Shown here one piece after another: positions 1-33,951 of a DNA stretch of 33,951 nt. The notes under the pieces were generated by a model that saw only the letters and a list, made by a program, of their open reading frames with translations, made no database searches and was not told the origin of the DNA. Origin of the DNA: an uncultured Verrucomicrobiales bacterium (GTDB lineage Bacteria > Verrucomicrobiota > Verrucomicrobiia > Verrucomicrobiales > DEV007). Where the stretch lies: NCBI GenBank assembly GCA_913058215.1, contig CAJXQE010000033.1, forward strand, positions 1 through 33,951, given 5' to 3'. Both the position numbers and the translations under genes were made by a program. Each line of letters begins with the position of its first letter. Position 1 is the stretch's first letter.

Positions 1-46
1 AGATCAGCCTCGGTCTCGTGGGCTCGGAGATGTGTATAAGAGACAG
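1..46. other. Illumina Nextera adapter (non-genomic)
   Basis: This stretch is sequencing-library adapter. It ends in the 19-base Tn5 mosaic end AGATGTGTATAAGAGACAG at 28-46, preceded by the Nextera read-2 sequence GTCTCGTGGGCTCGG and an 8-base index CAGCCTCG at 5-12. It is the reverse complement of the far end of the window. Genomic sequence starts at 47. Confidence 0.98.
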
Positions 47-4606: not shown

Positions 4607-5851
4607 ATGGATTTGCGAAATTACTCCCTGGTGACCGCTGCCTACTGGGTCTTCACGATCACTGATGGCGCCTTGCGAATGATTGTGCTGCTGCACTTTC
4701 ATACGCTCGGGTATTCCCCTGTTCAGATCGCTTTCCTTTTTCTGCTGTATGAACTCTGTGGAATTCTCACCAATCTTTTCGGAGGATGGATCGGATCTAG
4801 AACCGGTCTAAAAGCCACGCTGTTCGCCGGTCTTGCCATCCAGATAACGGCCCTGGGAACGCTTTCCCTCCTCAACCCCGAATGGGCTCCGGTTTTATCG
4901 GTCACTTTCGTGATGGGAATGCAGGCTCTCTCCGGAGTGGCAAAAGATCTCACTAAGATGAGCTCAAAGAGCGCGGTAAAACTGCTGGTACCTGCCGGAT
5001 CCGGAAATTCGGAAAGCCTTCTTTTCAAATGGGTGGCGATTCTCACCGGATCTAAGAATGCTCTCAAGGGTGTCGGCTTTTTTCTGGGAGGGCTTCTCTT
5101 GAGTTTGCTGGGCTTCGCCCTTTCTCTGCAAGCGATGGCGGCAGCTGTCCTGCTGGCACTGATAGTCACCGCCATTTTTCTGAGGGGCGACATGGGACGA
5201 TCGAAAGTGAAATCCCGCTTCAGGCAATTGTTTTCCAAGAGTTGCGAGATCAATCTGTTGTCGGCTGCCCGCTTCTTTCTCTTCGGCTGCCGCGATATCT
5301 GGTTTGTGGTGGGGCTTCCCATTTTCCTGGCTGAGATTCTTGAGTGGAACCACGAATCGATTGGAGGATTCCTCGCCGTCTGGGTAATCGGATACGGCTT
5401 TGTTCAGGCCTCCGCCCCGGCTCTTTTCCCCAATAAAGGAGGCATGGAATCCCGGGAAGGTGCGAAAGGAATCCTGATCTGGGGAGGCGTATTAACAGTC
5501 CTCACCGCAAGCATCGCCTGTGCGGTTCACTTTGATTTTTACCTTCTGTGGTCCGTAATGATTGGGCTTGGGCTCTTTGGAATTGTTTTCGCCCTTAATT
5601 CAGCGCTCCACTCATACCTGATTCTCTCCTATTCGGACTCGGACAAAATCTCGCTCGACGTCGGCTTTTACTACATGGCCAATGCCTGCGGGCGACTCGC
5701 TGGCACCCTACTCTCCGGATTGACCTACCTCTACGCGGGTCTTCCGGGTTGCCTCTGGACCAGCGCCGCGTTTGCCCTCATCGCCACAGTGATTACCGTC
5801 TGGCTCCCACGAACCGGAGCCTGCTGCGAAGTCTTCCCTAAAGAGAAATGA
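4607..5851 (+). CDS. arsJ: Organoarsenical efflux permease ArsJ (MFS)
   Basis: Major-facilitator transporter of 414 residues with about 12 hydrophobic segments, in the inner membrane. ArsJ proteins expel 1-arseno-3-phosphoglycerate, which then breaks down to arsenate outside the cell. The N-terminus MDLRNYSLVTAAYWVFTITD and the following LHFHTLGYSPVQIAFLFLLYE match the ArsJ pattern closely. The loop after TM2 has GGWIGSRTGL, an MFS A-like motif, and the conserved KDLTKMSSKSAVK segment is present. The ATG at 4607 is preceded by GAGAGGA at 4594-4600, one of only two convincing ribosome binding sites in this window, so an upstream GTG/ATG extension into gapdh is rejected. It ends 8 bases from the convergent exonuclease gene. 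Confidence 0.93.
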   Translation: MDLRNYSLVTAAYWVFTITDGALRMIVLLHFHTLGYSPVQIAFLFLLYELCGILTNLFGGWIGSRTGLKATLFAGLAIQITALGTLSLLNPEWAPVLSVTFVMGMQALSGVAKDLTKMSSKSAVKLLVPAGSGNSESLLFKWVAILTGSKNALKGVGFFLGGLLLSLLGFALSLQAMAAAVLLALIVTAIFLRGDMGRSKVKSRFRQLFSKSCEINLLSAARFFLFGCRDIWFVVGLPIFLAEILEWNHESIGGFLAVWVIGYGFVQASAPALFPNKGGMESREGAKGILIWGGVLTVLTASIACAVHFDFYLLWSVMIGLGLFGIVFALNSALHSYLILSYSDSDKISLDVGFYYMANACGRLAGTLLSGLTYLYAGLPGCLWTSAAFALIATVITVWLPRTGACCEVFPKEK

Positions 5852-6790: not shown

Positions 6791-7741
6791 ATGATAGAAG
6801 TTAATGATCTGCATAAGCACTTTGGCTCGAAGGTCGCCGTGGATGGGGTGTCCTTTAAAGTAAAAAAGGGCGAAGTTCTGGGATTTTTAGGACCTAACGG
6901 TGCCGGGAAATCAACGACCATGCGAATGGTTACCGGGTATCTCCCTTCAACCTCCGGTCAAATCCTTATTGATGGAGTTGAGCTGGAAGACAACGAGGTT
7001 ACCGCCAAATCAAAAATAGGATATCTCCCTGAGTCAGCACCGCTTTATTCGGACATGACAGTAGAGGGTTTTCTTCGGTTTGCTGCTGAATTACGCGGAA
7101 TTCCTAATTCAGGCCTGACTGACGCGGTCAATAAAGCGATCGAAACCTGCTTTCTCGAAAAAGTCCGCCACCAGAGCATCGAAACCCTTTCCAAAGGTTT
7201 CCGCCATCGGACGTGCCTCGCTCAATCAATCATTCACGATCCTGAGATTCTGATTCTCGACGAACCAACCGACGGTCTTGATCCCAACCAAAAGCACGAA
7301 GTTCGTGCCCTCATCAAACGAATGGGTAGAGATAAGGCGATTATTTTCTCCACTCACATTCTCGAAGAGGTTGAAGCCGCCTGCACCCGGGCAATCATTA
7401 TTGATCGCGGAAGTGTTATTGCCGACGGCACCCCGGACGAACTCAAAGCCAAGGCGCAAAACGCCGGGGCAGTTTTGCTTCGCGCTTCCGGACTCGCCGG
7501 AACCGGCATCCAACAGGAACTGGAGAAACTTACGGAGGCAAAAAAAGTCATCGTGGTCGAATCCGGTGACGACTACATCGAAGCCCGGGTCGTTCCTGCG
7601 AAAGGAAAAGGAAATGAACTCAGTCCCGCTGTTTTCAAACTCTGTAAAGACAAGGGCCTCGAAATTCAGGAATTGCGTGTGGAGCAAGGACGTCTCGACG
7701 AGCTTTTCCGCGAAATCACCAAATCGGACAGCGAAGACTGA
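6791..7741 (+). CDS. ABC transporter ATP-binding protein, GldA-like
   Basis: ATPase subunit of an ABC-2 type exporter, 316 residues. Walker A GPNGAGKST is at 34-42, an LPE Q-loop variant (GYLPESAP) near 78-85, the signature LSKGF at 133-137, Walker B ILILDEPT at 153-160 and the switch His189 in STHIL. LSKG in place of LSGG is common in the GldA/NatA group. About 90 C-terminal residues form the accessory domain often seen in drug and gliding-type exporters. It is first in a same-strand run with a GldF-like permease, a GldG-like protein and a DUF4340 protein, a set conserved in Bacteroidota and Verrucomicrobiota. The substrate is not known. No Shine-Dalgarno precedes the ATG. Confidence 0.93.
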   Translation: MIEVNDLHKHFGSKVAVDGVSFKVKKGEVLGFLGPNGAGKSTTMRMVTGYLPSTSGQILIDGVELEDNEVTAKSKIGYLPESAPLYSDMTVEGFLRFAAELRGIPNSGLTDAVNKAIETCFLEKVRHQSIETLSKGFRHRTCLAQSIIHDPEILILDEPTDGLDPNQKHEVRALIKRMGRDKAIIFSTHILEEVEAACTRAIIIDRGSVIADGTPDELKAKAQNAGAVLLRASGLAGTGIQQELEKLTEAKKVIVVESGDDYIEARVVPAKGKGNELSPAVFKLCKDKGLEIQELRVEQGRLDELFREITKSDSED

Positions 7742-24741: not shown

Positions 24742-25677
24742 CTATGCTCTGGGATGAGTCTTCTCGTAGACCGTCTTCATTCGCTCGATCGAAACGTGCG
24801 TATAAATCTGGGTCGTGGAAAGGCTGGCGTGCCCTAACAAAGTCTGAACACTTCGAAGATCTGCACCGTGATCGAGCAGATGAGTGGCAAAACTATGACG
24901 GAGTTTATGAGGACTGACATTCACAGGAATGTCGGAGGCGGCGTGATATTTTTTAAAAACTGATGAGACCGACCTTGTTGTGAGCCGCTTCCGCAGCTTG
25001 CTAATAAACAGCGGTCCGCTCATGACCTTCGCCTGATTCCGATATTCATGGATGGCGTCCGCTGCCGGAGTTCCCACCGGACAAACCCGCTCCTTGCTAC
25101 CCTTTCCGAAAACGCGGACACATTCATTGTGAAGATCGAAATCACTTACATTGAGGGCAGCCAGTTCCGAGAGTCGAATACCCGAGCTGTAAAATAGCTC
25201 AAGAATCGCGGCATCACGCCAGGCAATCCATGCAGGTGCCTGCTTTGCCTGTTCAATTTTGTGCGGCAATTCCAGGAGTTGAACTACCTGAGCCTGAGTC
25301 AGAACCACCGGTAATTTCTTTTCCGCCTTGGGCAGCTGGACCTCTGCAACGGGATTGTGAGTGAACCCTTGTCGGCGTGTGAGAAATTTATAGAAACTGC
25401 GCAAGGCTGCGAAATGCAGTCGAATCGTGGCGCGCGCCCACTCCGCTTTCATGCATTCATACAAGTAGTCGCGAAAGTCCTCTGCATCGACTTTCTCCCA
25501 AGTCTTGAATGAGGGTGCCGAAGCCCGGAACCGGGTCAAGGCGTGATGATAATTTGTCAGGGTTCGGTCGGAGGAATTTTTCTCAACCGAGAGATACTCA
25601 AGAAAAGTATCAACGAGCAGGTCGTCTTTTTCTGAAGCGGAGTGACCCGATGCAGAACCTGTCTGCGATCCCGCCAT
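24742..25677 (-). CDS. xerC: Tyrosine recombinase XerC
   Basis: Site-specific recombinase of 311 residues, expected to resolve chromosome dimers at dif together with XerD. An N-terminal SAM-like core-binding domain (about 18-110) is followed by the catalytic domain with Arg168 (SGIRLSEL), Lys192 (GKGSKER), His257 and Arg260 (HKLRHSFATHLL), His283 (LGHASLS) and the nucleophile Tyr292 (IYTHV). All six catalytic residues are present. The end KTHPRA is typical of chromosomal Xer proteins. It lies 7 bases downstream of the DUF4912-like gene and is probably co-transcribed with it. A second, XerD-like gene lies at the right end of the window. Confidence 0.93.
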   Translation of the reverse strand: MAGSQTGSASGHSASEKDDLLVDTFLEYLSVEKNSSDRTLTNYHHALTRFRASAPSFKTWEKVDAEDFRDYLYECMKAEWARATIRLHFAALRSFYKFLTRRQGFTHNPVAEVQLPKAEKKLPVVLTQAQVVQLLELPHKIEQAKQAPAWIAWRDAAILELFYSSGIRLSELAALNVSDFDLHNECVRVFGKGSKERVCPVGTPAADAIHEYRNQAKVMSGPLFISKLRKRLTTRSVSSVFKKYHAASDIPVNVSPHKLRHSFATHLLDHGADLRSVQTLLGHASLSTTQIYTHVSIERMKTVYEKTHPRA

Positions 25678-33423: not shown

Positions 33424-33906
33424 TTACCCGCGCGGATGGAATTTCTTATGCACGGATCGAAGCTGTTTCTGATCCACATGGGTATAGATCTGAGTCGTGG
33501 AAATGTCGGCATGACCAAGCAATTCCTGAATGACCCGGAGATCTGCTCCATTGCTCAGCAAATGAGTGGCAAAGGAATGCCTGAGAAGGTGGGGATATAC
33601 ATTCTGCTCGACCCCCGCCATCTTCGCGCGGTCTTTAACGATCTGCCGGATGCGGTTGGTGGTTAAACTCGTCCCTCTCATCGAAAGAAATATCTCGCTG
33701 CCGGATTTAGGCCCAACCAGCCCGGGGCGCTCGTGATCAATATAATCACTCAAGCATTTCACCGCCTCTTTCCCGACAGGGACCAAGCGGGTCTTGTTCC
33801 CTTTCCCCGTCACCCGAATGACACGCTCTTCCAAATGAAGAAGCTCCAGCTTTGCTCCGGTTAATTCCGAAACCCGCAAACCACTGGCATAGAGCAATTC
33901 CAATAT
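33424..33906 (-). CDS. xerD: XerD-like tyrosine recombinase, 5' part missing
   Basis: C-terminal 160 residues of a tyrosine recombinase; the N-terminal core-binding domain is lost at the contig end. All visible catalytic residues are present: Arg in SGLRVSEL, Lys in GKGNKTR, His and Arg in HLLRHSFATHLL, His in LGHADIS and Tyr in IYTHVDQ. The end VDQKQLRSVHKKFHPRG fits XerD better than XerC. Bases beyond 33906 are adapter; if translated they would add a false MYKRQ N-terminus. With XerC at 24742-25677, both chromosomal Xer partners lie within 9 kb. Confidence 0.9.
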   Translation of the reverse strand: MLELLYASGLRVSELTGAKLELLHLEERVIRVTGKGNKTRLVPVGKEAVKCLSDYIDHERPGLVGPKSGSEIFLSMRGTSLTTNRIRQIVKDRAKMAGVEQNVYPHLLRHSFATHLLSNGADLRVIQELLGHADISTTQIYTHVDQKQLRSVHKKFHPRG

Positions 33907-33951
33907 CTGTCTCTTATACACATCTCCGAGCCCACGAGACCGAGGCTGATC
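33907..33951. other. Illumina Nextera adapter (non-genomic)
   Basis: CTGTCTCTTATACACATCT (Tn5 mosaic end) is followed by CCGAGCCCACGAGAC and index CGAGGCTG. It is the exact inverse of the left end and not genomic. It interrupts the XerD-like gene. Confidence 0.98.

Follow-up and report, generated by a model that had tools for sequence, protein, structure and literature searches.

The window, that is, the whole stretch of 33,951 nucleotides analysed here, is the entire contig C33 of a Verrucomicrobiales assembly (G000; 595 contigs, 7,665,812 bases), and it carries synthetic sequence at both ends. At the left end, bases 1–46 read AGAT + CAGCCTCG + GTCTCGTGGGCTCGG + AGATGTGTATAAGAGACAG without a single mismatch. 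The four bases AGAT (1–4, + strand) are the tail of the P7 flow-cell adapter, directly outside the index, and longer P7 tails stand at other ends of the same assembly (TACGAGAT in L013 and TTCAAGCAGAAGACGGCATACGATAT in L029). They are followed by the i7 index N710 (5–12, +; CGAGGCTG on the opposite strand), the 15-base Nextera read-2 tail (13–27, +) and the 19-base Tn5 mosaic end (28–46, +), an exact copy of a synthetic hybrid sequence. For the mosaic end, the read-2 tail and the natural IS50 outside end, we relied on the sequences that we take to be theirs. The initial annotation had recognized a Nextera adapter with mosaic end and read-2 part at this end, had named the index N710 and had let the adapter stop at base 46. 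All of its parts are exact, the last base of the mosaic end is base 46, and the name of the index is confirmed by a printed primer table, in which N710 appears as CAGCCTCG in the primer and as CGAGGCTG in the read, in agreement with the window (PMC7589761). The primers in that table bear the same index set on a different 3′ tail.

The mosaic end occurs in two exact copies in the window, at 28–46 (+) and 33907–33925 (−), while shuffled sequences gave 0.01 copies per window on average with up to three mismatches allowed. The second copy is part of an adapter at 33907–33951, missing from the initial annotation, whose 45 bases are the exact reverse complement of window bases 2–46. Outward of its mosaic end, the remainder (33926–33951, −) consists of the read-2 tail (33926–33940), the index N710 (33941–33948) and three bases of P7.

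Next to the left adapter lies a 5′-truncated gene for a PGPGW putative transmembrane protein (47–327, +; Pfam PF09656), the family match being barely above its cut-off (23.4 against 23.3 bits). The open frame (40–327) holds the C-terminal portion of the protein; the adapter supplies the codons for E and T and one base of that for G, and an in-frame stop at 37–39 closes the frame. Among the remaining 32 genomes of the genus, 29 carry a homologue, and in the 11 that were read the frame is open upstream and encodes a conserved front of about 50 residues ending in DYFL. In the relative G024, base 47 of the window corresponds to L276:7350 and the likely ATG lies at 7196, and by this comparison about 154 coding bases (about 51 N-terminal residues) are missing. 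The adapter had been said to hide the true 5′ end of the first gene; the gene is indeed cut, but its 5′ end is absent rather than concealed. A search of the assembly for the missing front part gave a best match of only E = 2.4, on C104.

The right adapter borders on a 5′-truncated tyrosine recombinase gene of the Xer type (33424–33906, −; Pfam PF00589). Its genomic frame starts at ILELLYASGLRVSELTG, and G024 has 137 residues more from its likely ATG, so that in this same-genus comparison about 137 N-terminal residues are missing; the homologues in the genus are mostly about 300 amino acids long, and a few are cut by contig ends. The adapter is wholly in frame with the recombinase and adds 15 false residues (DQPRSRGLGDVYKRQ), and the mechanical list of open reading frames begins the gene at a false GTG within the mosaic end (33921–33919). 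When the missing front part was searched for in the assembly, only the paralogue at window positions 25270–25614 and a weak place on C1 were found. The two paralogous Xer-type recombinases of the window (24742–25677, −, and 33424–33906, −) lie about 8 kb apart and are 46% identical; G024 has a similar pair on a single contig, at a distance of about 11 kb. Pfam was run on 14 proteins of the window, and beyond those of the two end genes the 12 others include an aminotransferase, a PRA isomerase, GAPDH, a sulfatase and phosphoglucose isomerase, which are ordinary chromosomal enzymes.

The adapters are not peculiar to this contig. The assembly contains 934 mosaic ends (465 forward and 469 reverse; none for the reversed-pattern control) and 441 copies of the complete 42-base N710 arm, consisting of index, read-2 tail and mosaic end (control none). 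In the stretches of the own assembly that were read, all 147 of the 147 copies outside the window start no more than 49 bases from a contig end; contigs C576–C595 were read as N and stand outside this positional check. Left ends taken by contig number (C20–C56 less C33, C57–C136 and C300–C319, with four ends picked for lacking the motif excluded) showed a full mosaic end in 115 of 136, a cut one in 3 and none in 18. The three cut ends begin inside the mosaic end, of which 15, 16 and 17 bases remain. The initial annotation was correct, and the artefact is larger than it had described, the right end of the window and most of the contig ends read also carrying adapter.

Repeats are a common cause of a contig stopping, and at least 5 of the 18 adapter-free left ends look repeat-like. 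Short tandem repeats open those of C36 and C133, those of C32 and C78 agree at 84% of 189 aligned columns, and that of C70 has 42 bases in common with C110. The left ends of C32 and C78 (L212:1–200 and L301:1–200) show the same repeated stretch, followed by an apparent terminator hairpin.

In the 149 mosaic-end-bearing ends that were read, out of 934, the complete i7 indices were all N710 (75 of 75) and the complete i5 indices all S503, TATCCTCT (43 of 43). One index pair in every end read points to one untrimmed library. The 94 other genomes compared, drawn from the same genus, family or order, include a single one with mosaic ends (15 + 21 copies); therefore, the motif is no lineage trait. 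At the left end of C1 (L001:13–48), the sequence GTATATGAAAGAGACAG beyond the mosaic end looks like a second, damaged mosaic end and is perhaps an adapter-to-adapter product.

The genomic bases that follow the left adapter (47–55, +) bear the target bias of Tn5. Scored against GNTYWRANC, which we take to be the Tn5 target consensus, 83 ends of the own assembly gave 3.42 at the junction compared with 2.50 (sd 0.13, maximum 2.87) at offsets 9–49, and a further 64 gave 3.70 compared with 2.49 (sd 0.18, maximum 3.0) at offsets 9–30. Among the matches listed from other public genomes, 140 ends at 118 loci gave 3.71 compared with 2.54 (maximum 2.82). Since the bias begins directly past the mosaic end, base 47 is identified as an in vitro tagmentation point. 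According to the portion of the literature considered here, the tagmentation site is symmetrical and the base bias occupies roughly the first 10 bases of reads (PMC9330563); there the bias is derived from reads, whereas here it comes from the ends of assembled contigs and is used to show that these ends are cut points.

With a probability of about 0.99, the terminal sequences are a sequencing artefact of a Tn5/Nextera library (N710/S503), produced by read-through of short inserts and assembly without trimming. The direct observations are the exact adapters at the ends, the one index pair, the bias at the junction, the truncated genes, the ends of the next contigs and two overlapping pairs of ends, the last two described below; no evidence against the artefact itself was found. 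In the proposed course of events, Tn5 loaded with Nextera adapters (N710/S503) tagmented the DNA, some inserts would have been shorter than the read length so that reads ran into the opposite adapter, and the reads were presumably assembled without trimming. Such untrimmed read-through would leave most contig ends as a Tn5 cut point followed by adapter. Because each read-through enters identical adapter words, the adapter most likely then formed a common hub of the assembly graph, at which contigs were halted to either side of many cut points.

Whether the adapters also broke contigs can be judged from the ends themselves. Among 149 trimmed ends, two head-to-head exact reverse-complement overlaps were found, of 28 bases (C18/C55) and 21 bases (C63/C87), beside shorter matches of 9 bases (C66/C76) and two of 7 bases. 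The chance value is 0.67 at 7 bases, 0.04 at 9 and practically nil at 21 or more, and the reversed control gave none. The two exact overlaps between adapters indicate that adapters probably split some contigs, and C18/C55 and C63/C87 seem to be overlapping neighbours parted only by each running into adapter. Each of the two long joins is crossed by an open frame (182 and 93 residues), which backs them weakly, since C63/C87 is open in a second frame too and the doubtful join of 9 bases is likewise open, over 83 residues. The 9-base match between the left ends of C66 and C76 (L289 and L299) has the length of the Tn5 target duplication; the two are perhaps both sides of one insertion event, but chance may account for the match.

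The length of the adapter remnants bears on the same question. It ranges from 19 to 68 bases (85 ends), with a peak at 46–49 and a median of 47 in both arms, and lies between 42 and 51 bases in 79% of 149 ends. This peak would arise if the adapter were one node, common to the junctions, of a de Bruijn graph with a word size of about 55. Such a hub predicts that commoner genomic starts go with shorter adapter remnants, and the test of this gave a rho of −0.24 (p 0.08) for the 54 own ends that had been held out, −0.18 (p 0.05) for the full set of 117 own ends and −0.27 (p 0.004) for 110 ends from other genomes. The sign is the predicted one, the effect being weak. The full proposal, in which the adapter is one de Bruijn hub, contigs stop at tagmentation points and the remnant has a near-fixed length of k minus the few genomic bases that distinguish the junction, is put forward tentatively, at slightly under even odds. 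If it holds, the remnant length would serve as a fingerprint of the word size that the assembler used, and neighbouring contigs could be rejoined through short exact overlaps of their trimmed ends.

The surroundings of the two ends in G024 supply part of what can be said for a different course, in which contigs stopped at uncovered gaps, the last read happened to be a read-through and the adapters broke nothing. In G024, both terminal genes lie on one contig with order and orientation kept, and the PGPGW gene is preceded by two genes for NADH dehydrogenase, which Pfam assigns to the 20-kDa and 30-kDa subunits (nuoB and nuoC). The own-genome NuoC sits at the right end of C157, which terminates in the same N710 adapter, and the protein expected past the right end, which has no Pfam family, is cut at the end of C551, which also terminates in it. 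Measured on G024, gaps of about 209 bases to C157 and about 4497 bases to C551 remain, so sequence is missing at both ends of the window too, and the missing end-gene parts were not found in the assembly, which agrees with uncovered gaps. The first and last 100 genomic bases of the window matched the rest of the assembly at chance level only, with no overlapping neighbour, and a search of the assembly with 252 residues of the gene expected past the right end gave nothing, a result that shows little as it had no positive control. The window ends without overlap, the gaps on G024 and the 18 adapter-free left ends of 136 all tell against adapters alone having split the contigs. However, a plain coverage gap leaves no overlap, whereas two pairs among the 149 ends overlap by 21 and 28 genomic bases. 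Furthermore, the smallest contig of the assembly measures 2006 bases, so that a length filter has probably taken out the small fragments left where two breaks lie close together, and their removal would mimic gaps. Stopping at coverage gaps alone is accordingly regarded as a serious but somewhat doubtful possibility.

The attachment of adapters after assembly, by an error in submission or scaffolding, is very improbable. No support for such joining was found in the ends read; the remnants vary in length, three ends begin within the mosaic end, the i5 and i7 arms are both present, and the Tn5 bias sits at the junction. Least probable of all, to a practically negligible degree, is a natural end of a Tn5/IS50-like or other transposon within the genome. 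In its favour, the 19-base motif goes back to the ends of Tn5 and is inverted at the two window ends. Against it, the motif is a synthetic hybrid three mismatches from what we take to be the natural outside end (which nowhere fits the window with fewer than three), it has an Illumina tail and a sample index outward of it, it lies at the very tips of those contigs that were read and goes with one index pair, a single one of the 94 related genomes has it, and no transposase is present among the 14 window proteins scanned, the only recombinases being the two Xer-type genes. A further ground for rejecting a natural transposon end is that both copies terminate the contig, with no genomic DNA outside them.

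The read-through artefact is an ordinary one of a known kind, here in its Nextera-arm form, and it has no biology of its own. In a survey of MGnify genomes, TruSeq adapters were concentrated at the starts and ends of contigs (Moeller et al., 2024, BMC Genomics; PMC11536531). According to the portions of that report considered here, the adapters probably break contigs, up to 805 of them occurred in one assembly, and N50 rose in 327 of 1110 assemblies after trimming and rejoining (PMC11536531). The present case resembles the survey in the adapters at contig ends and in the probable breaking of contigs. It differs in that the survey, as far as these portions go, counted only a 12-base TruSeq word, and its main text contains none of the terms Nextera, Tn5 and transposase (PMC11536531). 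The Nextera arm is concerned here, a single genome carries 934 mosaic ends, and the effects on the end genes are described. Among the matches listed in a literature search on Nextera contamination of contigs or on false proteins coded by adapters, nothing relevant was found.

For users of this genome, the 934 mosaic ends, apparently nearly all at contig ends, bring up to about 50 false bases each. Genes at the ends are truncated or are lengthened with adapter-coded residues. Part of the fragmentation was probably brought about by the untrimmed adapters themselves and could be undone if the reads were trimmed and assembled anew.

By exact scan, this Nextera arm also turned up in other public collections, namely in at least 118 stretches of GTDB (species genomes) and at least 120 of IMG/VR. 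In the viral contigs of IMG/VR (L360–L439 and others), it lies mostly near the ends of the stretches among the matches listed. One copy in L418 is internal (4953–4986 of 9673, a whole viral contig), which suggests a chimeric join. In a Crenarchaeota MAG (L061:3943–3976; JAOAJQ010000047.1), the arm is internal to a scaffold, where a block of N and an index of 8 bases precede it, and this is an adapter retained at a scaffold join. The index N710 is common to many libraries and is seen again in MAGs from several SRR3933xxx runs. For a soil metagenome whose library bore N710, the part of its description considered gives N508 as the partner index and trimmed adapters, unlike the untrimmed N710/S503 library here (PMC7242671).
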